Shown piece by piece: positions 894-20,069 of a stretch of DNA of 64,000 nt; position 1 is the stretch's first letter; each line of letters begins with the position of its first letter. Below the pieces are notes generated by a model that made no database searches, was not told the DNA's origin, and saw nothing but the letters and a program-made list of their open reading frames with translations. The translations under genes were made by a program, and so were the position numbers. The stretch is from Lentisphaerae bacterium GWF2_49_21 (GTDB lineage: Bacteria; Verrucomicrobiota; Lentisphaeria; Victivallales; GWF2-50-93): positions 1 through 64,000 of the forward strand of contig MHBH01000077.1 in assembly GCA_001804805.1 (NCBI GenBank), written 5' to 3'.

Positions 894-3200
894 GTGATCG
901 CTGAGCATTTTCAATGGAACTTCCCCGGGGGGGTTGTCGGGCTTCTGGCGACAGTCCTGGGAATGCTGTTGCTCACAGGACTGTCCTACCGGTACACTCT
1001 CCGGCAGATGCCCCAGATTCCGAAGCTCCTCCTCTCTGCCCTGAGAGGCGCCTTCCTGCTGCTTCTTCTCTTCTGCCTCTGTGCACCAAGTTCGGTAAAG
1101 GAGGAAAAGATCAGGGAGGACGCCAAGACAAAGCTGGCAGTGGTCTTCGACGAGTCGGCAAGCATGAAGATCAACGGCTCAAAAACTGGCAGCCGTATCG
1201 ACGAATCGATAAGGTCCTTCCGGGAATCCGTGCTTCCGCAGCTGAAAAACTGCGAGCTGAAGTATTACGCCTTCGCCGAAGGGCTGCGTCCTCTTAAAAT
1301 ACCCGAAGAGATATCCCCCGCAAACGTTGATGCCGCACCGCTCTCCACCGCGTTCTACCAGAACCTTTCAACGTGGTCGAAGCAGTTCGCGGCGGACGGT
1401 GTCCAGGCTGTGATCTGCATGACGGACGGCATTGACACCGGCGGCGAATCGATCGATCTTGCGGCCGAGGCACTCAACAACGGAGCTCCGCCCCATCTCT
1501 TTGTCCCGGCGGCGATGCCTCTCAAGTCCAAGGAGTCCTTTGAGTTTATCAGGGTGGAGGCGCCTCCCGCGGTCCGTGCAGGTTCGAGCGTTCCAGTGAC
1601 ACTAGTTGCGAAATACGCAGGCCTGGAAGCCACACAGCCGCTTGAAGTGAGCATCAAGGAAGGCGACAAAGTACTGTGGCAGGAAAAAATGGCGCACAGC
1701 TCAAGCAGCGGCGCAGGCAGAACTGTCAGCTGCGAGCTTCCTATAAAGGACAAGGGGCCCCATGTATTCGAGGCGACTGCAAGCTATGGAGGGAAAAAGG
1801 CGGCGTCCGTGATCTGGAGCGTATACGGAGTCAGCAAGGAACGCACGAAGGTTCTCCTGTTCATGGGATCGCTCGATTTCGGGGCGCGCTATCTCAAGAG
1901 CGCATTCGAGCGTAGCGAGCACGCAGAGATAGCTGTGCGATTCGCCCCCGACGTGCTGGGCTCTAAGACCGGAGTGCCATCGAAGATAAAGGCGCAGTTT
2001 GTTTCTCCAGAGGAACTCGCGGAGTATGACGTTGCGATCCTCATGAACTTGCGCAGGCATCAGATCACCCCGGAGATGGAGGCCCAGCTCAAATACTACA
2101 TCTCCGGCGGCGGTTCGGTCCTCTTCATCATCGCAAACACCGAGGCGGCCTCGGAATATGTCAACAGCCCCGTGGAAAAATTCCTGCCGGTGAGCTTCGT
2201 GGATCCAAATACGGGCAACAGCGGACAGCTCGACGGGAAGACCCGGAGCTTCCTTGACAAGATGAGCCGTTACAGGGCCAACCTCGCGATGGAAAAGAAT
2301 GTGCAGGCGGCACGCGGCAGCATGGACGTACCACCCATGACAAGGCTTCTGGCTACGGCGGCAGGCGCGGAATCCCCTCTCTTCGAGTACGCCCGGTTCG
2401 AAGGCAAATTCAATGCAAAGATGCTTCCGCTCTTCGAGGACTGCGCACTGGTGGAGAAAGCCAAGCCCGGCGCGACAGTCCTGGCTGTGCATCCCGAGTT
2501 CTCCACGCCGGAAAACGGACCGCGCGTCCTTCTGGCCGTACAGCCTTTCGGGCATGGGCGCTCTGCAATACTTGCGACCGATCCTCTCTGGCGCTGGCGC
2601 CTCTCGATAAGCTCCAAGAGCAAGGACTTCGACAGGTTCTGGGAGAATTTCGTGTCATGGCTCGGTGGAGGGCACATGCGCCAGCCGCATTGGCGCCTGG
2701 CATCCTCGCTTGTTCCGGCGAACACTCCTGTGCCCATCTATTTTTTCATTCCTCCGGGAACTGTCAAATTCGAGGAGATCTCGTTCAGCTCCGAACGCAA
2801 TGGCAAGCAGCAGGCCCTGATCCTAAGTCCGTCAGGCAAGCCCGGTGAATACAAGGGCGAAGTCGCACTGACGCCAGGTTCGCGCTGCATCCTGAAGGCC
2901 TTTAAGGGAAAAGAGCTGATAGCCGAATCATCGCTCGCCGGAGGCGAAGCTCCTGCATTGAGGGAAATGGCGATATTGAAACCGGATCTTGCGGGACTCA
3001 AGTATCTTGCCTCCCTCAACAACGGACTCTGCGCCGACAACCTTTCCGGGCTGAAGCTTGCGGGCTGGCTGCCTGAACCCGGAGAACAGCTGCTCAAGAA
3101 GGACGAGCGTCCGCTCTGGCACGAGGCATGGATCTTTGCAGCCCTTATTGGTTTCCTGTGCGTGGAATTCTGTGTCCGCAGATTTTACAGGCTTGTTTAA
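894..3200 (+). CDS. VWA / GATase-like membrane protein of the MoxR-BatA cluster
   Basis: A 768-residue membrane protein. Two transmembrane segments lie near residues 14-33 and 45-64, then a von Willebrand factor A domain begins with an intact MIDAS motif DESAS at 86-90. A class I glutamine-amidotransferase-like fold follows around 300-430 (VLLFMGSLDFGARYL, later GGGSVLFIIANTE), and the protein ends with a last membrane helix near 742-762. This architecture is typical of large proteins found next to MoxR/DUF58/BatA genes in Planctomycetes and Lentisphaerae. The start is GTG 894, preceded by GGAG. It opens a long same-strand cluster that runs to 16368. The VWA domain probably binds partners in a metal-dependent way on the periplasmic side. 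The biochemical role is unknown. Confidence 0.75.
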   Translation: MIAEHFQWNFPGGVVGLLATVLGMLLLTGLSYRYTLRQMPQIPKLLLSALRGAFLLLLLFCLCAPSSVKEEKIREDAKTKLAVVFDESASMKINGSKTGSRIDESIRSFRESVLPQLKNCELKYYAFAEGLRPLKIPEEISPANVDAAPLSTAFYQNLSTWSKQFAADGVQAVICMTDGIDTGGESIDLAAEALNNGAPPHLFVPAAMPLKSKESFEFIRVEAPPAVRAGSSVPVTLVAKYAGLEATQPLEVSIKEGDKVLWQEKMAHSSSSGAGRTVSCELPIKDKGPHVFEATASYGGKKAASVIWSVYGVSKERTKVLLFMGSLDFGARYLKSAFERSEHAEIAVRFAPDVLGSKTGVPSKIKAQFVSPEELAEYDVAILMNLRRHQITPEMEAQLKYYISGGGSVLFIIANTEAASEYVNSPVEKFLPVSFVDPNTGNSGQLDGKTRSFLDKMSRYRANLAMEKNVQAARGSMDVPPMTRLLATAAGAESPLFEYARFEGKFNAKMLPLFEDCALVEKAKPGATVLAVHPEFSTPENGPRVLLAVQPFGHGRSAILATDPLWRWRLSISSKSKDFDRFWENFVSWLGGGHMRQPHWRLASSLVPANTPVPIYFFIPPGTVKFEEISFSSERNGKQQALILSPSGKPGEYKGEVALTPGSRCILKAFKGKELIAESSLAGGEAPALREMAILKPDLAGLKYLASLNNGLCADNLSGLKLAGWLPEPGEQLLKKDERPLWHEAWIFAALIGFLCVEFCVRRFYRLV

Positions 3201-3215: not shown

Positions 3216-3971
3216 ATGGGATTTACAAATGTTTTAGTCCGCATCCGGATGGTATTGCTGTTCACTGCAGTGCTGGCGTTGTGCTGTTTCCTGCAGGCGC
3301 AGAATCCCAGGCAGGATTCGAAGAACAGCGCCATCAAGGCCGCCGCGCCTTTCCACTGGGGCAGGGTGAAGTTTGGAACCGAGGAGAAGGTTGGCGACGT
3401 ATGGGACGCCCATCCGTGGGCCGATGCGCATTTCCTGACAGCGCTCGAGAAATACACGAACATCAATGTCGACAAGCTCTGGCGCGAGGTCCCTCTCGAA
3501 GACCTTGATGAGATGGTGAAGTTTCCGTTCCTGTTCATAACAGGTGAGGGCTGGTTCAATCTCAGTCCATTGCAGAAGAAAAACATCAAGGAGTATCTTG
3601 AGCGCGGAGGATTCCTCTTCGGCGACGACTGCGTGATCGGCAACACCGGAGACCATTTCTATATTTCATTCAGGAAGGAGATCGAGCAGAGCTTCAACAC
3701 CGAAATGGTGAAGCTGCCGGCGGATCACGCGATCTACCACTCGCTCTACGACTTCAACGGTCTGCCATATATGCAGGGGCAGAACCATGGAGGGCACGCC
3801 CTCTTCATCGGCAAGCGCATGGCGATCTTTCTTTCACCGTCGGATCTCCACTGCGGCTGGGGGAGCCAGTACCTGCGCACGACCAAAGGCAATGGATGGT
3901 TTACACTTGAGAAAGAAGAAGCCGCTGTCAAAATGGGTATCAACGTAATAGTTTATGCAATGACAAACTGA
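3216..3971 (+). CDS. DUF4159 domain-containing exported protein
   Basis: A 251-residue protein with an N-terminal hydrophobic signal segment (about residues 9-29, ending near LQAQ). One DUF4159 domain follows, marked by FHWGRVKFGTEE, HPWADAHFL, FLFITGEGWF and YLERGGFLFGDDC. DUF4159 is a GATase-like fold that regularly sits beside MoxR-VWA clusters. It lies 15 bp behind the VWA/GATase gene with GGAGG before the ATG, so the two are almost certainly co-transcribed. Its enzymatic activity, if any, is not known. The intact start, signal peptide and domain boundaries argue for a functional gene. Confidence 0.85.
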   Translation: MGFTNVLVRIRMVLLFTAVLALCCFLQAQNPRQDSKNSAIKAAAPFHWGRVKFGTEEKVGDVWDAHPWADAHFLTALEKYTNINVDKLWREVPLEDLDEMVKFPFLFITGEGWFNLSPLQKKNIKEYLERGGFLFGDDCVIGNTGDHFYISFRKEIEQSFNTEMVKLPADHAIYHSLYDFNGLPYMQGQNHGGHALFIGKRMAIFLSPSDLHCGWGSQYLRTTKGNGWFTLEKEEAAVKMGINVIVYAMTN

Positions 3972-4197: not shown

Positions 4198-6852
4198 ATG
4201 ACAAAGTTCAGGCGCATAATTTTCTGTCTGCTGCTGCTGGGCATAGCCATTCTTCCATCTTTCTCCCAGGCGCAGTCTCCAGCCAGGCACGCAGTTGTAA
4301 TCGGAGCCAAGTCAGGGGAGCAGGAGCTCTTCGACGAAAACCTTTCCTATTGCAAACGGACCTCCGAGCTGCTGCTCAAGAACGGTTTCGCCAAAGATCG
4401 CGTACTCGTATTCTTCGAGTCTCCGGAATCCCTGCCGGGAAGCACGGAGGCGAGTTCAGATGCGATCCTCTCCTCCCTTGCAAAGCTGGCCGGAAGCGTG
4501 CGCGAAGGTGATGAGCTCTGGATCTTCATCTACGGCGATGCCAACATCAACCAGCGCGGCCTCTCGCTGGCCACGAAAGGAAAACGCCTCTACGACAAAC
4601 CGCTTGCCGAGGCACTCGACAAGATCCCCGGCAGACAGTTCGTCTTCGGCCTCTGCCGCCAGAGCGCAGGGCTCATGGACAGCATGAAAAATCACCCGCG
4701 GGTCTTGTTCACCGCCACGAGCGATCCCAATGAACTCAATCCTCCGCGCATGGCGAAACATCTCATTGACACATTTGCCGCCAATCCTTCTTCATCGCTC
4801 CTGGAAATATTGAAGTCTGCTTCAGAAAAGACAGAAGAGGAATACAAGTCGAAGGGACTCGCCATCTCCGAAACTCCTCAGCTTTTCGACGGCAAAGACA
4901 TCCTCTCCTTCCCTTATGCCGGGTCCGATGCAAAAATGCTGGCCGTAGCGATCGCCGCTCCCAAGCCGGAAAAATCCACCCTCACGGAGAGCACTCTCTC
5001 AGGAACCGCTCCGGTCCCTGCGGTGAAGACCGAAAGACCGACTGCATCTGCGAAAGTCGCAGAACCAGCAACTGAAGAGACGAAGGCGCTTCTGGCGAAA
5101 GGACAGGCCCTCGCCGCAAAGCATCCCGGCTTCAAGGCTGTCTTCCTCTGGGAAAAGAAATCAATGACCGTAAGCCAGGACAATGCGGTGCAGACCACCT
5201 CCGATACCGCCATCTTTCTTGCGGACGGATCCGCCTCGGAAATTTTCGGTTCGTTAATATTGGAAGACTCGCCTCCATTCGTCGAGAAGGAACTCCTTTC
5301 CGCAAGGATTATCCTCCCCGATGCAAGTTTTCTGAATGTGTCTCCTGAACCTTCCATCACCGACACAAAGATGCGCCGCCGGCTTGTCCGACTGAAATTC
5401 CCTGGCGCCTGCGCCGGTGCGTTGCTCGAGCTCAAATCAAAGACCTCTGAGAAGCCTGAGAACCAGATGCCCATGTTCGAGGAGGAGTTCCAGATCCAGC
5501 ATGAATTTCCTGTAGGGGAGGCTGAACTCGTCATCCAATATCCGAAGGACAAGCCATGCCGCATCAAGGTCTACGGTTCGGAATTCAAGCCCGTACAGAC
5601 GCAGACGCCCTACAGCGCAGTGAGCACTTTCAAGTTCGGTGAAGTTCCGGCATTCGAGCCGCTCGCAGGAGATCCGCCGATCGCCGATTGCGTAGTGCGC
5701 ATGAGGATAAGTTCGTTACCCTCCTGGGATGAGTTCCTGAAATGGGCGCTGCGGATCACTGAAAAGAGCATGGAGCTGGACGATCCCGTCAAGGCGCTTG
5801 CCGTCAAGCTGACATCAGAAGCAAAGACCGACACGGAAAAGGTGAAGTCGATCTACGAATTTCTCTGCGAACTTCGCTACGAGACGACTCCGGTGGGTGT
5901 CCGTTCATTCCGTCCGCGTCTGCCATCCGAGGTCTGTTCCTCGAAGTACGGCGACTGCAAGGACAAGGCTAACGCGCTCGCCGCGATGTCTCGCTCGCTC
6001 GGTATCGACGCCTATCTTGTGCTGCTCAACCGCGGTGGTTTCTCCGACGTATCCTTCCCATGCTGGCAGTTCAACCACGCGATTGCATTCTTCCCGAAGC
6101 TCGAGGGCTATCCTAACGGACTCTGGTGCGACGCCACCGACGGTTCGACGCCTTTCGGCACATTGCCTCCAGGGGACATCGGCCGCGCGGCATTAATTGT
6201 AAAGCCGGGCAATTTCGAATTCAAGACTGTCACGCTTCCCTCAGGCGCGGAAAATATACTGAAGCAGATCGTCTCGCTTGAGGAGCAGACTGATGGTACC
6301 GTCAAGGGCTCGATGGTTGTTTCAGCGCTTGGTCTTGCCGACTACGAGTTAAGACAGCAGTTCAAGAGGCTCAGCCCGAAACAGGCGGAATCGCTGGCAC
6401 AGCACATCACCAATGATTCCTTTTCAGGGCTCTCTGCAAGCAAGCTGCAATTGAGTCCGTTGCACGAACTGTCAAAGCCATTCGAACTGCGCGCCGTACT
6501 TGCAGGAAAGTCTGCCAGGCTCAGTTTCCGCAGCATAAATTTCCCGGTTCCGCTCTGGGCCATGGTCGCCGCCGAGACGAGGGACCGTCCGCTGCTGATC
6601 AACGACGGCCAGCCTTTGAAGGTCGCGCAGGAACTGAGCTGCAAAAGCACATTGCCTGAGCCTGCCCTTCCAGCACCGTTCAAGACCGAAGCGCCGGGAT
6701 TCAAAGCCAGTGTTGTTTTCTCGAACAAAGGCGGCGTGCGGGAGCGCATCGCCACCATAGAACTGAGCCAGCCGATGCTGAGTCCATCCGACTATCCGGC
6801 CTTCCGTCAGGCGGTGCTCGAAGTGCTCAAGGCTCTTGACACGGATTTTTGA
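4198..6852 (+). CDS. Caspase-like (C13/C14 fold) plus transglutaminase-like exported protein
   Basis: An 884-residue exported protein with a signal peptide at 1-25. Residues 28-240 resemble a caspase/legumain-type fold (ARHAVVIGAKSGEQELF at the start, a GDELWIFIYGD strand, GLCRQSAG). The usual His-Gly after the strand is replaced by YGDAN, so this part is probably not an active peptidase. A Pro/Thr-rich linker follows. A jelly-roll-like region then leads into a transglutaminase-like core with the triad Cys587 (YGDCKDK), His627 (FNHAIAFF) and Asp645 (WCDATDG). A beta-rich C-terminal domain follows. Transglutaminase-like proteins are regular partners of MoxR-DUF58 clusters. It probably acts in the periplasm; its substrate is unknown. 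Confidence 0.75.
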   Translation: MTKFRRIIFCLLLLGIAILPSFSQAQSPARHAVVIGAKSGEQELFDENLSYCKRTSELLLKNGFAKDRVLVFFESPESLPGSTEASSDAILSSLAKLAGSVREGDELWIFIYGDANINQRGLSLATKGKRLYDKPLAEALDKIPGRQFVFGLCRQSAGLMDSMKNHPRVLFTATSDPNELNPPRMAKHLIDTFAANPSSSLLEILKSASEKTEEEYKSKGLAISETPQLFDGKDILSFPYAGSDAKMLAVAIAAPKPEKSTLTESTLSGTAPVPAVKTERPTASAKVAEPATEETKALLAKGQALAAKHPGFKAVFLWEKKSMTVSQDNAVQTTSDTAIFLADGSASEIFGSLILEDSPPFVEKELLSARIILPDASFLNVSPEPSITDTKMRRRLVRLKFPGACAGALLELKSKTSEKPENQMPMFEEEFQIQHEFPVGEAELVIQYPKDKPCRIKVYGSEFKPVQTQTPYSAVSTFKFGEVPAFEPLAGDPPIADCVVRMRISSLPSWDEFLKWALRITEKSMELDDPVKALAVKLTSEAKTDTEKVKSIYEFLCELRYETTPVGVRSFRPRLPSEVCSSKYGDCKDKANALAAMSRSLGIDAYLVLLNRGGFSDVSFPCWQFNHAIAFFPKLEGYPNGLWCDATDGSTPFGTLPPGDIGRAALIVKPGNFEFKTVTLPSGAENILKQIVSLEEQTDGTVKGSMVVSALGLADYELRQQFKRLSPKQAESLAQHITNDSFSGLSASKLQLSPLHELSKPFELRAVLAGKSARLSFRSINFPVPLWAMVAAETRDRPLLINDGQPLKVAQELSCKSTLPEPALPAPFKTEAPGFKASVVFSNKGGVRERIATIELSQPMLSPSDYPAFRQAVLEVLKALDTDF

Positions 6853-6972: not shown

Positions 6973-7971
6973 ATGTCTGGAAAAATTGCGGCGAAGGAAG
7001 CGGCTCTCCTGAAGGGGATGCCTGAAAAACTCAAGCTGATCAACAACGAGATACACAAGAGGATCATCGGCCAGGACGAACTGATCGCCGGACTCATGGC
7101 GGCCCTGCTCTGCCGTGGCCACTGCCTGCTGATCGGTGTGCCCGGACTGGCGAAGACACTTCTCGTGCACACGATCGGTGAGATCGCCGAACTGCAGTTC
7201 AGCAGGATACAGTTCACGCCCGACATGATGCCGAGCGACATCACCGGCAGCGAGATTCTCGAGGAGGACCACGCCACCGGCAAACGCCAGTTCATGTTCA
7301 TGAAGGGGCCGGTCTTCGCACAGCTCGTGCTGGCGGATGAGATCAACCGTACTTCACCGAAGACACAGTCGGCCCTGCTCGAGGCGATGCAGGAGCACCG
7401 CGTGACAGTCGCCGGCAAGAAGTACCAGCTGCCCGATCCGTTCTTCGTGCTCGCAACGCAGAATCCCATTGAGCAGGAAGGGACCTATCCGCTGCCCGAA
7501 GCACAGCTCGATCGTTTCATGTTCTGTCTCAATGTCAGCTATCCAAAATTCGACGAGGAGGTGGATGTCCTGCTCTCGACGACACAGGACGGACAGCAGG
7601 AACTTTCGAAGGTCGTGACCGGCGAAGAGTTTATCGCGCTCCAGGCCGCGGTGCGACAGGTGCCAGTGCCGAAGTCCGTGGCGGAGTATGCGGCGAAACT
7701 TGTCCGCGCAACGCGTCCCGGCGAAGGAAGTGCGCCTGAATTCGTGGAGAAGTACCTGCGCTGGGGCGCGGGTCCCCGTGCGTGCCAGTATCTGGCGCTC
7801 GCTGGAAAAGTCTTCGCAGTTCTCGACGGACGCCTCAACGTGGCGATTGATGACATCAAGAGGGCGGCCCATCCGGTACTGCGGCACCGAATCATATTGA
7901 ACTACCGCGCCGAGGCCGACAAGCGCAGTCCCGACGATCTCATAACTGAACTCATGGAAGGAATCAAGTAG
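6973..7971 (+). CDS. MoxR-family AAA+ ATPase
   Basis: A 332-residue ATPase of the MoxR group. It has Walker A GVPGLAKT at residues 55-62, Walker B LVLADEIN near 119-126 followed by RTSPKTQSALLEAM, the sensor segment FFVLATQNPIEQEGTY and a C-terminal lid domain. MoxR proteins use ATP hydrolysis to remodel or activate partners, usually VWA-domain proteins encoded alongside. Length and motifs are complete. The ATG is preceded by GAGG. Its last base is shared with the GTG of the DUF58 gene, so the two are tightly coupled. It most likely drives the whole cluster's machine from the cytoplasmic side. Confidence 0.93.
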   Translation: MSGKIAAKEAALLKGMPEKLKLINNEIHKRIIGQDELIAGLMAALLCRGHCLLIGVPGLAKTLLVHTIGEIAELQFSRIQFTPDMMPSDITGSEILEEDHATGKRQFMFMKGPVFAQLVLADEINRTSPKTQSALLEAMQEHRVTVAGKKYQLPDPFFVLATQNPIEQEGTYPLPEAQLDRFMFCLNVSYPKFDEEVDVLLSTTQDGQQELSKVVTGEEFIALQAAVRQVPVPKSVAEYAAKLVRATRPGEGSAPEFVEKYLRWGAGPRACQYLALAGKVFAVLDGRLNVAIDDIKRAAHPVLRHRIILNYRAEADKRSPDDLITELMEGIK

Positions 7972-8882
7972 TGCGCACAGGCCTCTCCATATCTTCTGAA
8001 TTCCTCGATTCGGAACTGCTGAGCAGGCTGCCCAGCCTGGAGCTTCAGGCGAAATTCCTCGTGGGCGGATTCCTCAGCGGCCTGCACCGGAATCCGCTCA
8101 GGGGAGGCAGCATAGAGTTCAAGGAGTACCGCGAATACCAGATCGGCGACGAACTCAAGCTTATCGACTGGAAGGCCTACGCACGCAGCGACCGCCTCCA
8201 CGTCCGCCTCCACGAGGAGGACACGGACATGACAGTCTATCTGCTTCTCGACCGCAGCGCATCGATGAACTACAAGAGCCGCAGCGCATCAATGAACAAA
8301 TGGGATTATGCACGAGCACTCGCGGCCGCACTCGTGTTCTTCCTGCATCGGCAGAGGGATTCAGTCGGGATGGGATTCATCGGTGCGGATCTCGAGGATT
8401 TCACCAAGGGCGGTTCGAAGGCGTCCCATATACATCAGCTCATGACGCAGCTCCACTGCGACGCGGACACCAAATCCTCGGGAATCGCCGAATCGCTTGA
8501 AACCATCATAGGACTTGTCCGCAGGCGCTCGATCGTAATTGTGATCTCCGACTTCTACAGCGATCCTGACAAGATCGCGAAACCGATAAGCAGGCTCAAG
8601 CATCTCCACTGCGAAACAATCCTGATGCACGTCCTCGATCCACGCGAGCTCGAGCTGGACTTCGACGAACCGGTCATACTGGACGAACTCGAGAGCCAGG
8701 CACGCCTGCCTCTGAGCCCGGATCTGATCCGCAAGGACTACCAGGCGAAACTTGCCGCGCACATAGAGGGGGTCACAGTCGCGGCCGGACAGAGCGGCGG
8801 CGACTACATACTCCTCTCGACGGCGGAGGTGCCATTGCGCGCGATCGGAGCATATCTTCACAGGAGGGACCTGATGCTATGA
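7971..8882 (+). CDS. DUF58 (VWA-like) protein
   Basis: A 303-residue cytoplasmic DUF58 protein, the standard partner of MoxR. It shows FKEYREYQIGDELKLIDWKAYARSD followed by a VWA-like MIDAS motif DRSAS at 94-98. A short internal duplication gives RSASMN twice (96-100 region and 104-109), inserting about eight residues just behind the MIDAS loop. It begins at GTG 7971 within the MoxR stop codon and ends overlapping the next gene by four bases (ATGA). The duplication is visible in the DNA at about 8251-8295 and may be lineage-specific. Function is inferred from the family: metal-dependent scaffold or target of the ATPase. Confidence 0.88.
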   Translation: MRTGLSISSEFLDSELLSRLPSLELQAKFLVGGFLSGLHRNPLRGGSIEFKEYREYQIGDELKLIDWKAYARSDRLHVRLHEEDTDMTVYLLLDRSASMNYKSRSASMNKWDYARALAAALVFFLHRQRDSVGMGFIGADLEDFTKGGSKASHIHQLMTQLHCDADTKSSGIAESLETIIGLVRRRSIVIVISDFYSDPDKIAKPISRLKHLHCETILMHVLDPRELELDFDEPVILDELESQARLPLSPDLIRKDYQAKLAAHIEGVTVAAGQSGGDYILLSTAEVPLRAIGAYLHRRDLML

Positions 8883-10828
8883 TACAGCTCGCGTTTGCAG
8901 GTTTTCTCACAGGTCTTCTGGCGCTTTCGGTGCCGCTGATCCTGCATCTGCTGCGGCGCAAACCTGTCGAAGTCGCGCCATTCCCGTCGCTGATGCTGCT
9001 TGGTGCGTCCATCGCGCGGCTGCAGAACCGCAACAACATCCGCAAGTGGATCATCCTGCTGCTGCGCTGCCTTGCGCTTGCCCTCCTCGCGCTTGCATTC
9101 GCCTGGCCCTACATACCAAATTTCTCGAAGCAGCCGGACAGCGCGACGGTCCTACTCTGGGACGACTCATTCAGCACGAAGTCCCGATCCTGTGCAGCAG
9201 AACTCAGCAATGCATTATTCGATGTGATATCGAGAGCCGGAGAAAAGAATCCGGTGCTCGCGGGCTCGGTCTCGAACACCGTGAAGTGGAGCGGGAATTT
9301 TACTGGCGACTCCGTTGCCCTGGCCCAATGGCTGAAGGCAAACATGGACGGTGAAGGTTCAAGCTCGTTTGAACGGGCCATTCGCGAAGCGGACATCAGG
9401 CTCCAGGCGATCCCGGTGAAGAAGCGGAAGATCGTCATTGTGAGCGACCGTCAGGCGCTGCCATGGAAGAGCGTGCGTCTCAATACTCAGCTTTCTCCTG
9501 GCACCGAGCTCGAGATGATATGCCCCGAGACTCCGCTTCCCGGCAACGTGGCGGTCACATCCGCAAAACCTGTCACGCGCTTCACTGCGCCGGGAAACAA
9601 GATAGGCTTAGATGCCAGCATCACGAACTTTGGCGCAAAGGACGCAAACGGTGAACTGATAGTCAAACTCGGTGATTTTATAACCGAGAAGAAGCAGGTG
9701 ACAATAAAGGCCGGACAGAAAGAAGACTTCAAGTTTACGTTGGTTCCGAGACTGCTGAAGCCTATAGAATGCTCCGTGGAATTCGAGGTATACGACGACA
9801 TCGCCCTCGACAACCGCCGTTTCTTCGCGTTGAATCCGTCCGATCCACCGCTGGTGCTCATGACCGCGCTGCCGCCCAGGCAGGAGGATTTCATCAGGGA
9901 TGCCTTCGAGCCTTCGCCGGAACGCAGTGCTGCGCGCGTGAACTACTGCGACATCAGGAATTTCAAGGGCGAACTCGCCCAGGCTTCCTTGATTGTGCTG
10001 CGGGAAGGGACGTCCATGAACTCTCCGTTCGGAAAGGAATTCGAGAAATATCTCCAGGACGGCGGTGCAGCCGTGCTGGTCTGGCGCGACAGCGCCGAGA
10101 TGCGCGGAATGCTATTGCGCTTCGGCGTCAAGGCGGCTATCAGCGGGAAGAAAGGCAAGCAGCGCTTCGGCGAGATAGACTTCGAGCATCCGGTCTTCAA
10201 GAAATTCATGCAGGCGAAAGTGGGCGGGCTCTTCAACATATCCTTCTTCAATCCGCCGACGCTGGTGCCTCCGGAAGAGGCGCGCGTGCTTGCGTCATTT
10301 GGCGACGGCCGGCCGGCCCTGCTTGAGATCTCATGTGGAAAAGGAAAAGTATTTGTCTGCGCAACTTCGATGGAACGCTCCGGAAGCGACTGGCCTGTCA
10401 ATCACAGCTTCCTGCCATTCTGGCGTGAACTTCTGACATACTGTTCCAAGGCAGGGAATGACGAGCTGCTGGAGCTTGAAGCCGGGAACAAGCCCTCCAA
10501 GCTGTCTGAGCCGCAGAAAAAGAATTTGACAGGAGGAAAGCCTCGCGCATTTGTACCGCGGAAGTGCGGAGTCTTCCCTGTTTCCCTTGACGGCAAGGAA
10601 ATACTCGCCAGCGTAAATCCTCCGGAGGATGAGTCAAACCCGGCGCGGCTGCAGAAGAATTTTCCGCTGCAGAATCTGGTGAACAAGGACAAGGAACCGC
10701 AGAAGGCGGTGGCCGGCCTTTCGTTCTTCAGCGGTGAACAGGGCCGCAGCTTCTGGCGGATATTGCTTGCACTAGCGCTCTTCTGCGCCTTGTGCGAACT
10801 TGCTCTGGCAAACAGGACGGCATTATGA
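8879..10828 (+). CDS. BatA-type VWA membrane protein
   Basis: A 649-residue protein opening with the BatA N-terminal domain. This has a membrane helix near 5-23, the LLRRKPVEVAPFPSL segment, and a second helix near 57-78. A VWA-like domain follows with DDSFS at 95-99, which satisfies DxSxS. The middle is beta-rich, the GATase-like part around 330-480 contains LQDGGAAVLVW, and a terminal membrane helix ends the protein (about 625-645). The BatA architecture places the bulk of the protein in the periplasm. It overlaps its upstream and downstream neighbours by four bases each. It is probably the membrane platform acted on by MoxR and DUF58. Confidence 0.85.
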   Translation: MIQLAFAGFLTGLLALSVPLILHLLRRKPVEVAPFPSLMLLGASIARLQNRNNIRKWIILLLRCLALALLALAFAWPYIPNFSKQPDSATVLLWDDSFSTKSRSCAAELSNALFDVISRAGEKNPVLAGSVSNTVKWSGNFTGDSVALAQWLKANMDGEGSSSFERAIREADIRLQAIPVKKRKIVIVSDRQALPWKSVRLNTQLSPGTELEMICPETPLPGNVAVTSAKPVTRFTAPGNKIGLDASITNFGAKDANGELIVKLGDFITEKKQVTIKAGQKEDFKFTLVPRLLKPIECSVEFEVYDDIALDNRRFFALNPSDPPLVLMTALPPRQEDFIRDAFEPSPERSAARVNYCDIRNFKGELAQASLIVLREGTSMNSPFGKEFEKYLQDGGAAVLVWRDSAEMRGMLLRFGVKAAISGKKGKQRFGEIDFEHPVFKKFMQAKVGGLFNISFFNPPTLVPPEEARVLASFGDGRPALLEISCGKGKVFVCATSMERSGSDWPVNHSFLPFWRELLTYCSKAGNDELLELEAGNKPSKLSEPQKKNLTGGKPRAFVPRKCGVFPVSLDGKEILASVNPPEDESNPARLQKNFPLQNLVNKDKEPQKAVAGLSFFSGEQGRSFWRILLALALFCALCELALANRTAL

Positions 10829-13224
10829 GAATGGAAAGAATATTGTATAAGAAGATTCATATGATGATGGCTCTCGTCATGGGGCTGGTGTTTTTTGCCT
10901 CAGCAGGAAGCATTGCCGCCGATGGAGAAGCTCCTGTCCTGCCAAACGGCCAGGATCTGAAAACAGAAAAGGACTACTCGAAGATTGCGCTGGCCTGGAT
11001 CAAGCGTAACACGCTGGAATACTTCCCCGGCAAGGACAGCAGCCTCGATCCGGTACAGATTCAGTTCGGGCAGCAGTTCCTCTACGAATCCTGCCTGAAA
11101 TTCGCCGATGACAAGAATGCACTCTCTGACACAGAGCTTGACAATAAGACACGTTCTCTTTTTACTATTGCTGGACTGAAACATCCTGTCTTGCAGGCGT
11201 GGACGGGACGCACGCTCGTAAAGAGCAGGAAATACAAAGATGCCGAACCCTCGCTGGCCTCGGCGGTGCAGGAATTCAACAAGGGAGACTTTCCCCTCAT
11301 CCATAAAATCACCGCGTGCATGGCCTATGTCAAGAGCCTTGAGGAGCAGCGCAAAGGGAAAAGCAAAGAATGCCAGCAGGCGTTGTCCGCAATCCCGGAA
11401 TCCTTTGCAGAATCTGTTTCCAAGGGAGATTTTGGCAAGGATGAGCTCTCCATTGCATTCAGGCTGATGGACGAATGGGTCAACGATGACATAAAAGGGC
11501 ACGGATGGAAGGATGTCTTCAAGGCCCTCAAGTCCCGCTCGAAGATCGATCCATGGCTGATGAAGACGATCGAGGGCAAGACCGAGATCGAACTTGCCTG
11601 GGATGCACGAGGCGGAGGATATTCCGGCTCTGTGACAAAGGACGGATGGAAGGGGTTCGAGGAGCATTTGTCCAAGGCCCGTGCCGTCTTGCAGGAGGCA
11701 TGGAAGCTGCGGCCGGACCTCCCTGAGGCACCCGCATCCATGATCACCGTGATCATGGGCGGAAAAAACGGCAATGGTGAAACGGAAATGCTCTGGCTTT
11801 CCAGGGCGGCCAGCGCCCAGCTCGACTACATGCCAGCTTACAGGAAGGCCAGCCTGGCCCTTATGCCAAAGTGGGGAGGCAGCATCAGGAAGCTCCACGA
11901 GCTCGGACAGGCCTGCCTGGCGACAGGACGCTTTGACACCGATGTTCCCGTCTTCCTCCTCTACTGTCTCAAAAGCATATGCACCGAAGCACCTCCCCGG
12001 CAATGGCGCTCGGTATTCGCGCAGAAGGTTGTACAGGACGAACTGGACGACCTCTGGCAGGGAATGATCGACGAACCCGGCCGGGCCAAGGAACGCAACA
12101 GGATTTTGACGCAGTGGGCCATTTGCAAGATGTGGGGCGGAAACTACGAAAGGGCGCAGGAGCTTATGTCGGATGCCGACCTGACTCTGAACCTCAACAA
12201 CGGTTTTGCGCACATGAGCATCACCCGCTATAACAATACTCCGAGGGAAAGGATAATGGCGGAACTCCGCCTCTTTACCGGCCCGTCGAAGGAGTCCGCA
12301 GTCAAGTGGGCTGCAGCTGTCGCAACGGGTAGCGAGAGCGATGCGGTGGACGCCGCAAAAGTGCTTCTCGGGAAGAACAAGGACGACGTGGATGTCAGGA
12401 AACTCATACTGGCGGATACCGCATTAATGGTCCTTGATGATGCCAAACATTCGCCGGACATCACCGATCCCCTCCTCTTTTCCCTAGGAAACGGCAAACG
12501 CAACGTGCTCAATTTCATTGCTGACAACGGCTGGCCTCTTGATGACGCCAGTACAAGCGGCTGGAACGCGCTTACAACTTCCCTGTACTATAAGAAATTT
12601 GACGATGCGAAGATGCTCCTCTCAAAAGGCGCCGACATAAACTACAAGAACAAGTCGGGGGAAGCCCCCCTGCACCTGCTGGGCCGCATGGGCAGCCTGG
12701 AGGCAGTCACCTTCCTTGTTGAAAACAAAGCCGATCTGGAAAGCATCGTCCCCCCTCACAATACAACGCCTCTCCTGGCCACCATATATGGGAACAAGGA
12801 GGCCAGCGCGTTGTATCTCATCGACAATGGAGCCGGGCTGGATGCCGCCGATGTAGACGGAGACACGCCATTCCATAATGCATGCAACATGAGGCTTTTC
12901 TCAGTGGCGAAACATCTGGTTGAAAAGGGGGCAAATCCCGGCAAGGCAAACAAGAACGGCAGCACCCTCATCTTTTATGCGATAAATTTCAAACAGACTG
13001 AGATTGTTGCGCTGCTGATTGAAAAGGGCGCGGAGCTCTCAGTGAAAAACCAAAACGGCGATACTCCCCTCCATGCCGCGGCGATGCAGGACAACCCGGA
13101 TGTAGTTTCCCTCCTGCTTGAGAAGGGCGCGGACAGGAACGCCGTCAACAACAACGGCAGGACACCGCTTGCGCTCGCCAAGGAAAAGAAGTTTGAATAT
13201 AACATAAGACTCCTGTCTAAATAG
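10825..13224 (+). CDS. Exported ankyrin-repeat protein
   Basis: A 799-residue protein with a signal peptide (positive start, hydrophobic MMMALVMGLVFFASAG, cleavage near AADGE at about 32-33). The N-terminal 500 residues are helical and Trp-rich, possibly TPR-like, with no family I can name. The C-terminal 270 residues are about seven ankyrin repeats, recognisable by GWNALTTSLYYKKFDDAKMLL, GEAPLHLLGRMG, GDTPFHNACNMR and GDTPLHAAAMQDNPDVV. Ankyrin repeats mediate protein binding, here probably in the periplasm. I use ATG 10825, which overlaps the BatA stop; the open frame reaches 33 bases further upstream but only inside the BatA gene. This is an unusual member for a MoxR cluster. Confidence 0.82.
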   Translation: MRMERILYKKIHMMMALVMGLVFFASAGSIAADGEAPVLPNGQDLKTEKDYSKIALAWIKRNTLEYFPGKDSSLDPVQIQFGQQFLYESCLKFADDKNALSDTELDNKTRSLFTIAGLKHPVLQAWTGRTLVKSRKYKDAEPSLASAVQEFNKGDFPLIHKITACMAYVKSLEEQRKGKSKECQQALSAIPESFAESVSKGDFGKDELSIAFRLMDEWVNDDIKGHGWKDVFKALKSRSKIDPWLMKTIEGKTEIELAWDARGGGYSGSVTKDGWKGFEEHLSKARAVLQEAWKLRPDLPEAPASMITVIMGGKNGNGETEMLWLSRAASAQLDYMPAYRKASLALMPKWGGSIRKLHELGQACLATGRFDTDVPVFLLYCLKSICTEAPPRQWRSVFAQKVVQDELDDLWQGMIDEPGRAKERNRILTQWAICKMWGGNYERAQELMSDADLTLNLNNGFAHMSITRYNNTPRERIMAELRLFTGPSKESAVKWAAAVATGSESDAVDAAKVLLGKNKDDVDVRKLILADTALMVLDDAKHSPDITDPLLFSLGNGKRNVLNFIADNGWPLDDASTSGWNALTTSLYYKKFDDAKMLLSKGADINYKNKSGEAPLHLLGRMGSLEAVTFLVENKADLESIVPPHNTTPLLATIYGNKEASALYLIDNGAGLDAADVDGDTPFHNACNMRLFSVAKHLVEKGANPGKANKNGSTLIFYAINFKQTEIVALLIEKGAELSVKNQNGDTPLHAAAMQDNPDVVSLLLEKGADRNAVNNNGRTPLALAKEKKFEYNIRLLSK

Positions 13225-13240: not shown

Positions 13241-14506
13241 ATGGCAACTGAGAAATACAGCTTGTTCAAGAGACTGGAAGTGGAGCATCAGGCAAGGAAC
13301 TGGCGCAGGCCCCTGCTCTGCTTTGCGCTCTGGCTTGTGCTTGGCTCCATAGCCGCAATCGCAATATCCTGTTTCGCACCTCAGTCGCAGTCCTTCAAAC
13401 TCTGCCTGCAGGTGCTCTGCTCCACTTTTGCGGCGGGATTATTGAGCTTTGCACTAATGGCGTTTTTATCGCGGCAGGAAAAGCCGGCCACCGCGAAGCA
13501 GCTCGACAGCGAAACCAAGGCGAAGAACCGTCTCGAGGCGTCTCTGGAAATGCTCGACGGAGCAAATCCGCTGCGCGAAGCACAGGCCGAGGAGGCCTCT
13601 GGGTTCTATTCACGGCAGAGGGCGCCGATATGGCCTCTCCTGCTTGTCCTGCTGCTTGCGATCATAATCTTCCTGCTTGCGGGCCAGACGGCGCTGCTGG
13701 TCAAGCAGTATGGCGTTTCCAAAAAAGCCATCGCAAAGGAGCAGGAGGAAAAGAAGAAAGTGGAAGAGGAGAAGAAGCTCAAGGATAAAGCTCCGGATTT
13801 CGCGGAGATGGCGCTGAGTGCGCCGGAGTCCGAAATCCGGGCGAAGCCCATCGACGAAATCATCTGGGAGGGGAGCACCAACAGTTCATGCGGCTTCACC
13901 TCGATTTGCCTGGAGGCGTCGGTAAACGGCGCCAAGCCTGTCTCCCTGGCCATGGAGAACGCACCGCTGAAGAAGACAGGGGAAAGCCAGGTGACAGGTG
14001 AAATGCTTCTTGAAGAGCTGAAGGTTGTCCCCTTCGACGTAGTCAGCTACAACCTGCGCGGCACCGCACCGCTTGACGGCAGGCCGGACGTGGAGATCGT
14101 CAGCGTACCGCAGTTCATCGAGGTGCGCCCGTTCCGCGAGGAGGCGATAATCATGTCGGCACAGATGACCGGAGAAGGAGCCAAGCTGATGAAGATGCTG
14201 AACATGCTCTCGCATTTCCTCCGCATGCAGCTTGCCTTGAACAAGGCTGTGTTCGTAGCACGTGCATCGGGACTTCCAAGCGACAGCCCGGTGCTGCGCG
14301 AGCAAGTCGAGCTCATTGCCGGCGAACAGCAGGACCTCCGCAAGGAACTCGATAAATTCCTGACAGAGACTCCCGCCGAGGAGATAAGCGCCAACGCATT
14401 CGACTGCCTGAAACAGAGCCTTGCTGCGATGGACGAGGCTTGCCGACGCTTCGGAGTTACGCCCAAGCCGGCTTCAACCACAAAAGGAAAGGCCAACAGC
14501 CCATGA
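13241..14506 (+). CDS. Membrane-anchored coiled-coil protein of unknown function
   Basis: A 421-residue protein with two N-terminal membrane helices (about 27-48 and 53-76), a third near 129-151, and a charged coiled coil (KEQEEKKKVEEEKKLKDK) at about 163-185. A globular region follows, mostly beta then helical, ending in a helical tail. The layout implies that the C-terminal 250 residues lie on one side of the membrane, tethered by the coiled coil. I recognise no domain. It lies 16 bp behind the ankyrin gene, and its stop overlaps the ATG of the following gene, which puts it in the same transcription unit. Confidence 0.75.
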   Translation: MATEKYSLFKRLEVEHQARNWRRPLLCFALWLVLGSIAAIAISCFAPQSQSFKLCLQVLCSTFAAGLLSFALMAFLSRQEKPATAKQLDSETKAKNRLEASLEMLDGANPLREAQAEEASGFYSRQRAPIWPLLLVLLLAIIIFLLAGQTALLVKQYGVSKKAIAKEQEEKKKVEEEKKLKDKAPDFAEMALSAPESEIRAKPIDEIIWEGSTNSSCGFTSICLEASVNGAKPVSLAMENAPLKKTGESQVTGEMLLEELKVVPFDVVSYNLRGTAPLDGRPDVEIVSVPQFIEVRPFREEAIIMSAQMTGEGAKLMKMLNMLSHFLRMQLALNKAVFVARASGLPSDSPVLREQVELIAGEQQDLRKELDKFLTETPAEEISANAFDCLKQSLAAMDEACRRFGVTPKPASTTKGKANSP

Positions 14507-16368
14507 AAATCAAAATGACAGTTTTTTTCCTGCTTGCACTTCCACTGTTCTATATTCCTTCAGAGAGCATGGGGGCGGATCCGGAACTCAAACAGGCAGG
14601 TGAATCCCAGCAGCAGGCGATCAGCGGAATAGTCGCCGCGATGAAGGACGTGCAGAAGGCCATCATGGACATGAAGGGACAGGGCACCCCTCCCCCAAAG
14701 GAGGAGAAAAATCCATTCGACGACAAGCAGAAATATAAGAAACCCCCGATGCCGCCCGAGGAAAATCCCGAAAACCAGCTGGCCGCACTCAGCAAGAAGG
14801 AGACCGAACTTCTGAAACAGCTGGATGAAGCGGAGAAAGAATCAGGAGAAGGAGAAGATCAGCAGCAGTCGGATTCAGGCGGCCAGCAGCAAAAAGATGG
14901 CAAGGAAAATAAACCACAGCAGGGATCTGGACAGCAGAAGGAGTCCGGCAAAAAGCAGGAGTCTGGACAGGGACAGGGTTCCGGAGAACAGAAAGATTCC
15001 GGCAAGAAACAGGAATCTGCCCAGGGTTCTGGACAGCAGAAGGAATCTGGCAGCCAGTCGCAAAAAGATGAAAAGGAAAAGAAATCACAGCAGGGATCTG
15101 GACAGCCGAAGGAATCCGGGAAGAAGCAGGAGTCTGCACAGGGAACTGCTCAACAAAAAGATCCTGGCAAGCAACAGGCCGGACAGCAGGAGTCCGGGAA
15201 CGAAAAGTCGGAAGGCGAGTCTGAAGGAGGAAAGCAGTCTTCGGGCAAGGAATCCGACCAGTCTTCCTCAAAGAAGGGAGGAGGCAAGCCCTCCATGAAA
15301 GATCTGGTTCAGCGTCAGGGGGAGATCTCACAGGGCATCCAGAAGCTGGCTAAGAATGAGGACCTCGCGCCGGAGGTAAAACAGGATCTCGACCAGGCTT
15401 TACAGTCGAGTGCCCAGGCCGAAAGCGCTTTGGACTCGAACAATGAACGCGAGGCCAAGGCGAAGGCGTCAAAGACCAAGGCGAACCTGCAGGAAGCCGC
15501 GAAAAAACTTCGGGAGAAGAGTGAAGAGGCCGCCGAACAATCCCTCGCCGACTCCCAGAAGGATCTCAACGAGACCAGCGCACAGCTTGAGGCGGGCAAG
15601 AATGAGAAGGCTGCTCAGAAGCTCAAGGAAGCCATGTCCCAGATTGAAAAGGAGGCCGCGCAGCAGCACAAGGCCGGCAGCCAGAAGACCGCTGAAAATC
15701 TTGCGGATCTCGCAGAGAAGATGAACAAGGATGCGCCCAAGGGCGAGGAGATGAAGGCTGGAGACCAGAAGAGCCGCGAGAAGGCCGAGGCAGGTATTGA
15801 GAAACTGCGCGAGGAGGTCGCCACTGCCCGTGAAAAGGGAAAGGACGAACGCGCAAAACTCACTGAAGCGGTTGAGAAACTGGAAAAGCTGGGTAAGGAA
15901 TTTGAATTCGTCAAGAAGAACCCGGATGCGGCACGGGCGGAGGAGAAAAAGGCGATGATGTCCGATGCCGAACTTGCCATGCAAGATGCGGCGAAGGCAA
16001 TCTCCGAGTCAAGCCGCGAGTCTTCTGAAGGCTCGGAACCCGGAACGGCCAAGGGCAAGAATCCGGGCGGCAATGTTCAGGCTGGCGGTGAAACCTCCCC
16101 GAAGAAGGCCGCGCAGAAACTCATGACACAGGTCGGATCCGTCTATAAAGAGCACGTCGAGGAGTCTCCGGACGCCAAGGATATCGACACCGTACTTTCA
16201 GGGATGCGGAGCATGCTGGAGCTTGCGCGCGGCGTGCTCAACGGACTGCAGAAGGAATTCCTGGTGCACAGCTTCGATCCGGAAGAGGTTCCTGAGGCCT
16301 ATCGCGAGGATGTTTCAGAATATTTCAAGCGACTCTCGGAAGGCTCGAAGAAGGAACGGCCAAAATAA
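14503..16368 (+). CDS. Exported low-complexity Q/G/S/K-repeat coiled-coil protein
   Basis: A 621-residue exported protein. The true start is ATG 14503, overlapping the previous stop; it gives a clean signal peptide (MKIKMTVFFLLALPLFY, cleavage near SMGAD). After a short conserved region, residues about 115-265 are degenerate repeats of GSGQQKESGKKQES type. The following 250 residues are a long charged coiled coil rich in Ala/Lys/Glu. The last 90 residues (RSMLELARGVLNGLQKEF, HSFDPEEVPEAYREDVSEYF) look globular and conserved. Similar Gln/Lys-rich proteins close MoxR-VWA clusters in related bacteria. The repeat tract probably acts as a flexible, wall-penetrating or self-associating linker. Confidence 0.75.
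   Translation: MKIKMTVFFLLALPLFYIPSESMGADPELKQAGESQQQAISGIVAAMKDVQKAIMDMKGQGTPPPKEEKNPFDDKQKYKKPPMPPEENPENQLAALSKKETELLKQLDEAEKESGEGEDQQQSDSGGQQQKDGKENKPQQGSGQQKESGKKQESGQGQGSGEQKDSGKKQESAQGSGQQKESGSQSQKDEKEKKSQQGSGQPKESGKKQESAQGTAQQKDPGKQQAGQQESGNEKSEGESEGGKQSSGKESDQSSSKKGGGKPSMKDLVQRQGEISQGIQKLAKNEDLAPEVKQDLDQALQSSAQAESALDSNNEREAKAKASKTKANLQEAAKKLREKSEEAAEQSLADSQKDLNETSAQLEAGKNEKAAQKLKEAMSQIEKEAAQQHKAGSQKTAENLADLAEKMNKDAPKGEEMKAGDQKSREKAEAGIEKLREEVATAREKGKDERAKLTEAVEKLEKLGKEFEFVKKNPDAARAEEKKAMMSDAELAMQDAAKAISESSRESSEGSEPGTAKGKNPGGNVQAGGETSPKKAAQKLMTQVGSVYKEHVEESPDAKDIDTVLSGMRSMLELARGVLNGLQKEFLVHSFDPEEVPEAYREDVSEYFKRLSEGSKKERPK
14870..15265 (+). repeat. In-frame degenerate repeats encoding Q/G/S/K-rich segments
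   Basis: The reading frame contains many near-copies of units such as CAGGGATCTGGACAGCAG and AAGGAATCTGGC. They yield GSGQQKESGKKQES-like peptides with varying lengths of 10-16 residues. Such tracts tend to vary in copy number between strains and assemble poorly from short reads. Confidence 0.7.
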
Positions 16369-16683
16369 AAATGGCTCTTTCCCAGATCGAGCGGGTAACT
16401 CGATTAGAAAGACTGAATATCCAATATCCAACAAGGAATATCCAACCGATGAAGGGAAGAAAAGACGAACTCATCCAACAGTCAGAGAAAATTAAGTTTT
16501 CCTTAAAAAAATAACTAATTGAGCTCAATATTATTCAAAAGCACAGATGCGGCTAAAAAGAAGAATCCGATAATTTCCTTGGACATTGGACATTCCGTGT
16601 TGGATATTGGACATTCAATTATTTTATATTTTGTGTGTTTCCCCACTCAAAATGTAAACGAACCATAAAAATCACAGGCGTTT
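16369..16683. repeat. Gene-free gap with inverted ATATCCAA/TTGGACATT repeats
   Basis: This 315 bp AT-rich gap separates the VWA cluster from the convergent ArfB-like gene. At 16415-16445 lies a double unit of GAATATCC-AATATCCAAC type. At 16579-16616 lies its inverted, slightly diverged partner (TTGGACATTGGACATTCC, then GTGTTGGATATTGGAC). The two arms could pair over about 30 bases across roughly 130 bases. I see no gene in between. It may form a bidirectional termination region. Confidence 0.6.
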
Positions 16684-17103
16684 TCAATCATCGCTGTCGA
16701 AGCGCCTGTTCCTTTTGATTTCGGATCTCCTGTGCTTGGATTCCATGCGGATCCTTTTTGCGGACATTTTGATCCTTGTCTTTTTGCGGAATTTCGGTTT
16801 GATCGTGGCCGCCCTTATGAGCTCCACGAATCTGTTCATTGCCTCCTCTCGGTTCTGGAGCTGGGTCCTGTGGATGTCGGAGTTCACGGCAATGAAACCC
16901 TCATTGCTTATCCTGTTGCCGTAAAGCTGGAAAATCCTGTGCTTGACATCGCCTGGGACGGACGGGGAACTCCTGACATTGAACCTTATCTGGACGGCGG
17001 TGGAGACTTTGTTGACGTTCTGTCCGCCCGGGCCGGAAGCCCTGACAAACTTCTCCTCTATCTCGCACTCAGGTATGCGGATCCTGTCAGTTACGTAAAT
17101 CAT
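16684..17103 (-). CDS. arfB: Peptidyl-tRNA hydrolase ArfB-like, GGQ-domain release factor homologue
   Basis: A 139-residue protein with the RF-1 domain. It has FVRASGPGGQNVNKV with the catalytic GGQ (about residues 27-29), VQIRFNV, then a basic Lys/Arg-rich C-terminal tail (RKKTRIKMSAKRIRMESKH). This tail matches ArfB/YaeJ, which hydrolyses peptidyl-tRNA on stalled ribosomes and inserts its tail into the mRNA channel. The internal ATG at 17103 starts the protein at MIYVTDRIRIPE, which fits the family N-terminus. The frame is open to 17175, but the extra residues have no family counterpart. It is divergent from the phosphatase gene that starts at 17178. Confidence 0.87.
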   Translation of the reverse strand: MIYVTDRIRIPECEIEEKFVRASGPGGQNVNKVSTAVQIRFNVRSSPSVPGDVKHRIFQLYGNRISNEGFIAVNSDIHRTQLQNREEAMNRFVELIRAATIKPKFRKKTRIKMSAKRIRMESKHRRSEIKRNRRFDSDD

Positions 17104-19323: not shown

Positions 19324-19737
19324 TCAACCTGTCTTCACCGTCATTTCCAGATGGTTCTTTCCGTTCCTGCGGCAGTATGACATGTTCTGGACCATCTTTC
19401 TCACAAGATGGATGCCGAGACCGCCGATTTCCCTTTCATGTATCGGCGCGTCTGTTTTCTTTTCCGGCACGGAAAGGGGATTGAATTCAACACCTCCGTC
19501 CTCGATGGAGATCTTCAGCTTTTTCTTTTCCACGGATATTCCCAGGGCTATGTCATGGTTGGCGAAGTCCTTGAATGCATATTTTATGACATTCGAAAGC
19601 ATTTCCTCAAGAACAAGGTGGACCGTGAAGACGACATCCTCGGAGATTCCCTTGTTCTCCAGGAAAAGTTCCACCCCTTCAGAAATCCTCTGAAGTTCCT
19701 CCATGTCATTCTTGAAGATTATATTGAGTTTATTCAT
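19324..19737 (-). CDS. RsbW-like anti-sigma serine kinase / ATP-binding protein
   Basis: A 137-residue GHKL-fold ATPase of the HATPase_c_2 (RsbW/SpoIIAB) type. It has the N-box EEMLSNVIKYAF, G1 box EDGGVEFNP and G2 box GGLGIHLVRKM. These proteins bind and inhibit a partner (often a sigma factor) and phosphorylate a STAS protein. Its ATG overlaps the stop codon of the upstream STAS gene by four bases (19734-19737), the usual arrangement for this pair. No sigma factor gene is seen nearby, so the regulated target is elsewhere or is not a sigma factor. Confidence 0.88.
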   Translation of the reverse strand: MNKLNIIFKNDMEELQRISEGVELFLENKGISEDVVFTVHLVLEEMLSNVIKYAFKDFANHDIALGISVEKKKLKISIEDGGVEFNPLSVPEKKTDAPIHEREIGGLGIHLVRKMVQNMSYCRRNGKNHLEMTVKTG

Positions 19738-20027
19738 TGAACTGACAAGAACTGATCCATTCCGGCGATCTTGAAGACCTTTTTGATCTGAGGGGAGGCG
19801 TTTGCAACCTGGAATTTTCCAGGTCCCGTCTTTTTTGCGGCGGATATGCAGAGCCTGAGGAAGGCGGAGGATACGAAATCCACGCCAGTGAGATCGAATA
19901 CGACTGGCTGTCCGGCCTTCTCAACCTGACCGGCCACCTCGTTTTCGATGCCCGAGCAGGCGGACGTGTCCATCCTGCCTTGAAAATTGAAAACCTTCTT
20001 CCCTTCTTTCTCTTCCATCTTATACAT
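19734..20027 (-). CDS. STAS-domain anti-sigma factor antagonist
   Basis: A 97-residue STAS protein with the fold's typical order: FNFQGRMDTSACSGIENEV, VVFDLTGVDFVSSAFLR, then the C-terminal helix. The conserved phosphorylatable serine pair is Ser53-Ser54. In its unphosphorylated form such a protein binds the RsbW-like kinase and frees that kinase's target. ATG 20027 is supported by GGAG seven to eight bases upstream. It is followed with overlap by the RsbW-like gene and lies 39 bp behind the aldehyde dehydrogenase gene, so the three may share a transcript. Confidence 0.88.
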   Translation of the reverse strand: MYKMEEKEGKKVFNFQGRMDTSACSGIENEVAGQVEKAGQPVVFDLTGVDFVSSAFLRLCISAAKKTGPGKFQVANASPQIKKVFKIAGMDQFLSVQ

Positions 20028-20043
20028 ATTATTCTCTCCTGTT

Positions 20044-20069
20044 TAATTTTTTGCATGTGCAAAAAATTA
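20044..20069. repeat. 26 bp palindrome at the stop codon of the aldehyde dehydrogenase gene
   Basis: TAATTTTTTGCA-TG-TGCAAAAAATTA is a perfect inverted repeat that starts at the TAA stop (20067-20069 on the minus strand). It sits just before the ribosome binding site of the STAS gene. The AT-rich stem could weaken read-through or separate expression of the two genes; no downstream U-run makes it a standard terminator. Confidence 0.6.

Follow-up and report, generated by a model that had tools for sequence, protein, structure and literature searches.

Gene organization of the locus

The window, meaning the whole 64,000-nucleotide stretch of DNA analyzed here, contains an open reading frame (4198-6852, + strand) that encodes an 884-residue protein in which a legumain/metacaspase-fold domain is joined to a transglutaminase-like enzyme. 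The first-pass annotation had placed this fusion in a MoxR cluster, a setting borne out by Pfam, which identifies MoxR, DUF58, BatA-like and DUF4159 genes around it. Apart from the fusion itself, the cluster comprises the following genes:

894-3200, + strand: GATase1-like protein (GAT_vWA), cluster member (PF07090, E-value 0.00041, under the cut-off; vWA label given by eye)
3216-3971, + strand: DUF4159 protein, cluster member (PF13709, E-value 2.8e-34)
6973-7971, + strand: MoxR-type AAA+ ATPase, the gene immediately following the fusion (AAA_3, E-value 4.1e-63)
7971-8882, + strand: DUF58 protein (PF01882, E-value 1.5e-44)
8879-10828, + strand: BatA-like membrane protein (BatA, E-value 9.2e-14)
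13241-14506, + strand: p13241, conserved cluster protein (no Pfam match over cut-off; found after BatA in related loci)
14440-16368, + strand: p14440, conserved Glu/Lys-rich cluster protein (no Pfam match over cut-off; recurs in related loci)

The MoxR protein of the window scores 41.2 bits against bpMoxR (cut-off 27), compared with 211.5 bits against the general AAA_3 family, and no beta-propeller or FtsH families are present among the ten cluster proteins scanned by Pfam. In the window, an ankyrin-repeat protein (10843-13224) is encoded between BatA and p13241, a position that is empty in those related fused clusters that extend far enough, where p13241 directly follows BatA. At another locus (L079 of genome G079, 13866-17000), a p14440-like region and a GATase1/vWA-like protein share one 1045-residue frame, which suggests that the two products act together. 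At the beginning of the window, a small addiction-module-like gene (163-384; PF09720, 22.0 bits, just under the cut-off) is followed by an open reading frame (381-669) broken by several in-frame stops; judged from their sequences, the two look like a decayed toxin-antitoxin pair.

Within the fusion, the following features can be delineated, all on the + strand:

4198-4272, + strand: putative signal peptide at the N-terminus, residues 1-25 (MTKFRRIIFCLLLLGIAILPSFSQA, recognized by eye)
4273-4929, + strand: legumain/metacaspase-fold pseudo-peptidase domain, residues 26-244 (structure model, fold matches, sequence profile)
4537-4539, + strand: Asp114 at the catalytic His position (aligned with the GH His of 11 of the 18 fused proteins and with the His of metacaspase YSGHGT)
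4657-4659, + strand: Arg154 at the catalytic Cys position (alignments; Cys153 is the preceding codon)
4930-5067, + strand: low-confidence linker, residues 245-290 (pLDDT below 50 over residues 239-285 of the full-length model)
5068-6849, + strand: DUF3857-type region, transglutaminase-like core and C-terminal beta domain, residues 291-884 (Pfam, Foldseek)
5956-6132, + strand: transglutaminase-type triad Cys587/His627/Asp645 (kept in 19 of 19 aligned proteins)

On the strength of its putative signal peptide, the window protein is probably exported; its orthologues have similarly hydrophobic N-termini. Pfam searches with the whole protein return Transglut_core and a sub-threshold DUF3857 match only, and the relative placement of the domains in the full-length model (pLDDT 72.7, pTM 0.46) is tentative.

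Fold of the N-terminal domain

Modeled on its own from the window sequence and three relatives, the segment spanning residues 26-244 reaches a mean pLDDT of 90.0 and a pTM of 0.90. The caspase-like fold previously proposed for residues 25-240 agrees with this model, the top match of which in VIA-align is legumain (4nol; Z 21.1, 191 residues aligned at an rmsd of 2.5), ahead of metacaspase-4 (Z 20.0) and chain K of the GPI-transamidase (PIG-K, 8imy_K; Z 19.4); no fold of another kind emerged in its place. Foldseek returns 97 matches at an E-value of 0.001 or below, which include metacaspases, legumain, MALT1 and caspases, the best being metacaspase 7qp1 (1.9e-7). The comparison of the family sequence profile with metacaspase-4, in which no model is involved, gives an E-value of 4.7e-6 and brings the GH of the metacaspase onto the GH of the family. 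As modeled, the N-terminal domain is thus of the caspase/legumain type, with legumain (C13) first and metacaspase close behind. Gingipain is not among the best 50 matches listed by Foldseek or VIA-align, an absence that is no evidence of a difference in fold.

Legumain (4nol, 4awb) and PIG-K share the fold of the window domain over its whole length; by comparison, the window protein lacks their His-Cys dyad and is fused to a transglutaminase-like domain. The metacaspases (C14; 6w8r/6w8s, 7qp1) likewise differ from it by possessing the dyad, and their alignment at the sequence level ends at the His, covering only the N-terminal half of the domain. Searches of Pfam and NCBIfam find no family match for the N-terminal domain: the C13 family (PF01650) fails to match it even at an E-value of 10 and has no match at 0.001 or below in the genome of the window. 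The same family matches 4 of 23 members of the pseudo-peptidase family at 0.1 or below (best 1.8e-6), and a sequence search of the PDB with one free-standing relative yields no match.

Loss of the catalytic dyad

The first-pass annotation had noted that the His-Gly of the peptidases is replaced by the motif IYGDAN in the window protein and, correctly, that the catalytic His is lost; Asp114 occupies its column. It had also taken the Cys of GLCRQS for the C13/C14 nucleophile, and this assignment has to be corrected. In a MAFFT alignment with C13/C14 relatives of the same phylum that possess the Cys, this nucleophile falls on Arg154, one residue beyond Cys153, and profile-profile comparison by HHalign places it on the same residue (probability 98.5% when only the fused family is used and 99.1% with the free-standing members added). 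Both alignments set GTCHSGSF over LCRQSAGL residue by residue, and the conserved Arg168 agrees with the same ungapped register. Cys153 is thereby rejected as a surviving nucleophile, as is an apparently intact dyad in the family (a GH with a strand-4 Cys at locus L019), the Cys of which shares the column of Cys153.

The fused set consists of the window protein and 17 others, one of which had to be read in two pieces from different frames. Its nucleophile column holds Thr in nine proteins, Arg in three, Pro in two and Gly, Ala, Glu and Ser in one each; Cys is found in none. The His column holds His in 11 of these 18 proteins, Tyr in three, Asp in two and Arg and Thr in one each, and the complete His-Cys dyad occurs in 0 of 18. 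Homologues with the His, which had been named beforehand as evidence against a degenerate peptidase, do therefore exist; they do not refute a pseudo-enzyme because the nucleophilic Cys is missing from all 18 fused proteins. As aligned, this family-wide loss of the nucleophile supports the pseudo-enzyme more strongly than the argument originally made from the window protein. Having neither the catalytic His nor the Cys, the N-terminal domain of the window protein cannot use the clan CD mechanism to cleave peptide bonds. Several of its other residues are invariant or nearly so (Gly113 and Glu225, 17/17; Gly40 and Pro183, 16/17; Asn181, 15/17; Pro182, 14/17).

The transglutaminase-like half

Pfam Transglut_core (PF01841) matches residues 532-611 with 42.4 bits (cut-off 23; E-value 9.1e-11), and the triad Cys587/His627/Asp645, described at the outset as intact, is retained in every one of the 19 aligned C-terminal halves, a set that includes locus L081, in which the N-terminal domain is lacking, and the C-terminal piece of the frame-split locus L084. 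A loss of Cys587 or of another residue of the triad is thereby ruled out, and the thiol domain is apparently active, to judge from these residues. The DUF3857 match (PF12969) has an E-value of 0.015 and 15.8 bits, under the cut-off of 24.6. The best Foldseek match of the whole model is 3kd4 (2.0e-23), also the sole PDB sequence match of the whole window protein (0.00015). This structure is that of BDI_1141, a putative protease of Parabacteroides distasonis, with a chain of 506 residues; in the window protein, the match takes in residues 373-610 and nothing of the N-terminal domain. The structure has YGTPLE aligned where the window protein has YGDCKD.

L081 consists of the transglutaminase half with neither the N-terminal domain nor any detected cluster gene; the enzyme half can thus exist without the N-terminal domain. 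Elsewhere in the genome of the window (contig C5, 190234-192729), a 1266-residue open frame carries two transglutaminase cores, and several relatives covered by the search have similar large frames, in which the second transglutaminase match is the weaker one.

Distribution and history of the fusion

The family was surveyed within the phylum of the window. A profile of the N-terminal domain finds matches at an E-value of 0.001 or below in 25 of the 197 genomes of the class, and a broader profile in 44 of the 387 genomes of a phylum-wide sample. The search for the fusion in other genomes, which had been recommended beforehand, brought the total to 18 fused loci from 18 genomes, so that the fusion is neither a one-off nor an assembly artefact; 15 of them lie in the order of the window, and the families of the other three (L128-L130) are not part of the class. 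MoxR is directly downstream of the fusion in the window and at 14 other loci (15 of 18), the exceptions being L080 and L083, with DUF4159 adjacent, and L085, without any other cluster gene on a contig of 5.3 kb.

Identity to the N-terminal domain of the window ranges from 18 to 46% over 12 other N-terminal domains, and the retention of the fusion at such identities with the same neighbours is not a matter of chance. For the five nearest rows, the identity of this domain is 46, 39, 36, 37 and 40%, compared with 34-41% for the whole protein; by this measure, the N-terminal domain is conserved at the level of the remaining protein. In a tree including two Cys-bearing rows from outside the cluster (L093 and L147), the fused label takes two changes, whereas in a second tree from which they were left out a single branch (SH-aLRT 87) splits fused from free-standing members. 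A single fusion event is possible on these trees, in which some branches are long. At one locus (L040, 5361-7788, which shares its contig with L084), the reading frame of the fused gene changes inside the N-terminal domain; the two pieces were analyzed separately, and the split may be an assembly error, real decay being the alternative.

Free-standing relatives

The domain also exists as a separate gene. All 30 free-standing copies adjoin GATase1/vWA-like, DUF4159 or MoxR genes: the adjacent gene is GAT_vWA, as present in the window cluster, for 16, MoxR for seven and DUF4159 for three of the 26 copies analyzed in full, and four further strong hits (L148-L151), counted for their neighbours and not for the nucleophile column, have the same gene neighbours. 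Nine weak hits in the phylum (L152-L160; E-values from 1e-8 to 1e-3) lie outside the cluster and were not counted as family; the one exception, L156, is accompanied by a MoxR-like gene on the opposite strand.

With L093 and L147 left out, the nucleophile column of the 26 copies holds Ser in 15, Ala in six, Thr in three and Glu in two, again with no Cys, and 25 of them retain the His. In place of the C-x-S-G of clan CD peptidases, many of these His-bearing relatives have a sequence of the type SAS[AGS]PF (L132-L135, L137, L139-L143, L145, L146 and others), and they possibly represent a Ser-His version of the caspase fold. One copy, counted as Ser (L091, 7317-8624, the same gene as L065), reads TSCAG, with a Cys one place past the nucleophile column that is perhaps a shifted or surviving one. 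The genome of the window itself has such a relative at a second locus (L094, 7253-8491, - strand; contig C89, approximately 19594-20259), with the His kept and Thr in the nucleophile column, adjoining two DUF4159 genes and a GATase1/vWA-like gene.

Comparison with known systems

Bacterial pseudo-orthocaspases, in the accessible portion of their description, are p20-type domains in which both catalytic residues are replaced, commonly His by Tyr and Cys by Ser (PMC6426788). By comparison, the window protein has Asp and Arg at these positions and legumain as its closest fold; the accessible text contains no occurrence of "transglutaminase", "Lentisphaer", "Verrucomicrob" or "legumain". Inactive orthocaspases are also noted in the accessible part of PMC5756287, which makes no mention of transglutaminase.

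In the MoxR-vWA (VMAP) systems, about 70% of the caspase domains in effector position are catalytically inactive and have been proposed to act as dominant-negative regulators or peptide-binding domains, and transglutaminase-like domains are rare in the MoxR-vWA (VMAP, iSTAND) ternary conflict systems, according to the sections available of PMC7159879. These systems and the window cluster have MoxR and vWA partners and inactive caspase-fold domains in common. However, the caspase of VMAP systems is fused to VMAP or vWA, with no mention of DUF58 in the same sections, whereas the window protein carries a DUF3857-type transglutaminase fusion, is apparently exported and has DUF58, BatA and DUF4159 partners. 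The bifidobacterial PFNA operon comes close in gene content, as it brings together an AAA ATPase, DUF58 and a transglutaminase-like gene, a set also found in the window cluster; in contrast, its transglutaminase is a transmembrane protein, and a caspase-fold domain is not mentioned in the accessible part of the source (PMC8430577). A literature search, with subscription papers mostly outside its reach, returned no paper on the DUF4159 cluster, on DUF3857 in combination with transglutaminase or on the fusion. Inactive caspase domains have been described, and so have MoxR-DUF58-transglutaminase operons, but their combination was found in none of the papers retrieved.

Proposed role of the fused pseudo-peptidase

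The reading that we favor, with a probability of about 0.55, is that the exported pseudo-peptidase captures a partner, or a substrate, on behalf of the thiol enzyme to which it is attached and that it belongs to the conserved components of a MoxR envelope cluster. The inactive effector-position caspases of the VMAP systems offer a precedent. Against this reading stand the three fused loci at which MoxR is not directly downstream and L081, where the enzyme half occurs alone. The first-pass annotation had suggested that a pseudo-caspase could regulate the papain-like domain or recognize targets; its view of the two domains as fused in a MoxR cluster is supported, and either role is a conjecture. 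Its N-terminal domain, with a clan CD fold devoid of the dyad (Asp114, Arg154), would serve as a binding module, the groove of which would hold a protein or peptide partner; Gly40, Gly113, Asn181-Pro182-Pro183 and Glu225, conserved at the sequence level, may line this groove. The tethered DUF3857-type transglutaminase-like domain, with its intact triad, would act on the bound partner, probably an envelope protein handled by the adjacent MoxR-DUF58-BatA chaperone set. These neighbours suggest an envelope-assembly context. The fold, the family-wide loss of the catalytic residues, the intact triad and the constant gene neighbourhood come from the computations; export, peptide binding, delivery to the thiol enzyme and the link to MoxR-driven envelope assembly are steps that we infer.

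The location of the domain on the N-terminal side of the thiol enzyme, similar to that of a prodomain, and the approximately 45 residues of low-confidence linker between the two would also suit a structural or autoinhibitory lid, which would bind no target and keep the transglutaminase site covered as long as neither the MoxR system nor a ligand moves it aside. However, a transglutaminase of the fused type was detected beside none of the 30 free-standing copies; the domain thus has a role independent of the enzyme, and a lid is the less likely reading. Even less probable is an alternative chemistry, in which a Ser or Thr nucleophile together with the retained His would make the domain a hydrolase or transferase, the window protein belonging to a minority that lost the activity. 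The frequency of Ser and Thr in the nucleophile column of the free-standing copies (15 and three of 26), the nearly universal His of these copies and the nine Thr of the fused set fit this scheme, but even fused proteins that are closely related differ in this column (Arg, Thr, Pro, Gly or Glu), an Ala is no possible nucleophile, and the Asp and Arg of the window protein make such chemistry implausible in its own case; free-standing members may possess it.

Since both catalytic residues are missing, the domain might also be regarded as a passive relic of a former protease, retained only for being fused and harmless. This is the least credible of the explanations and at odds with a domain that is as conserved as the enzyme half over 18 fusions in several families, that keeps Gly113, Glu225 and Pro183 fixed or nearly so and that is also retained as a separate gene.

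Significance

Few substrates are known for the widespread MoxR-DUF58-BatA clusters. A dead domain lying beside genes of the MoxR cluster in every strong copy examined offers a handle for finding such substrates by pull-down, and the covalent tie of the presumed binding module to a thiol enzyme in one branch is part of that handle. The recurrence of this domain beside the MoxR set across the phylum points to a docking module kept on purpose, and the family is a further, clear example of how a protease fold can turn non-catalytic and still be kept over long evolutionary distances. More tentatively, and with odds short of even, an exported family of legumain-fold proteins without a nucleophile could be a core component of a MoxR-DUF58-BatA-DUF4159 envelope machine throughout the phylum, in which the free-standing copies, mostly with Ser-His in the active site, may be receptors or unusual serine hydrolases and the one branch fused to a transglutaminase-like enzyme would have become a self-guided envelope-modifying protein.
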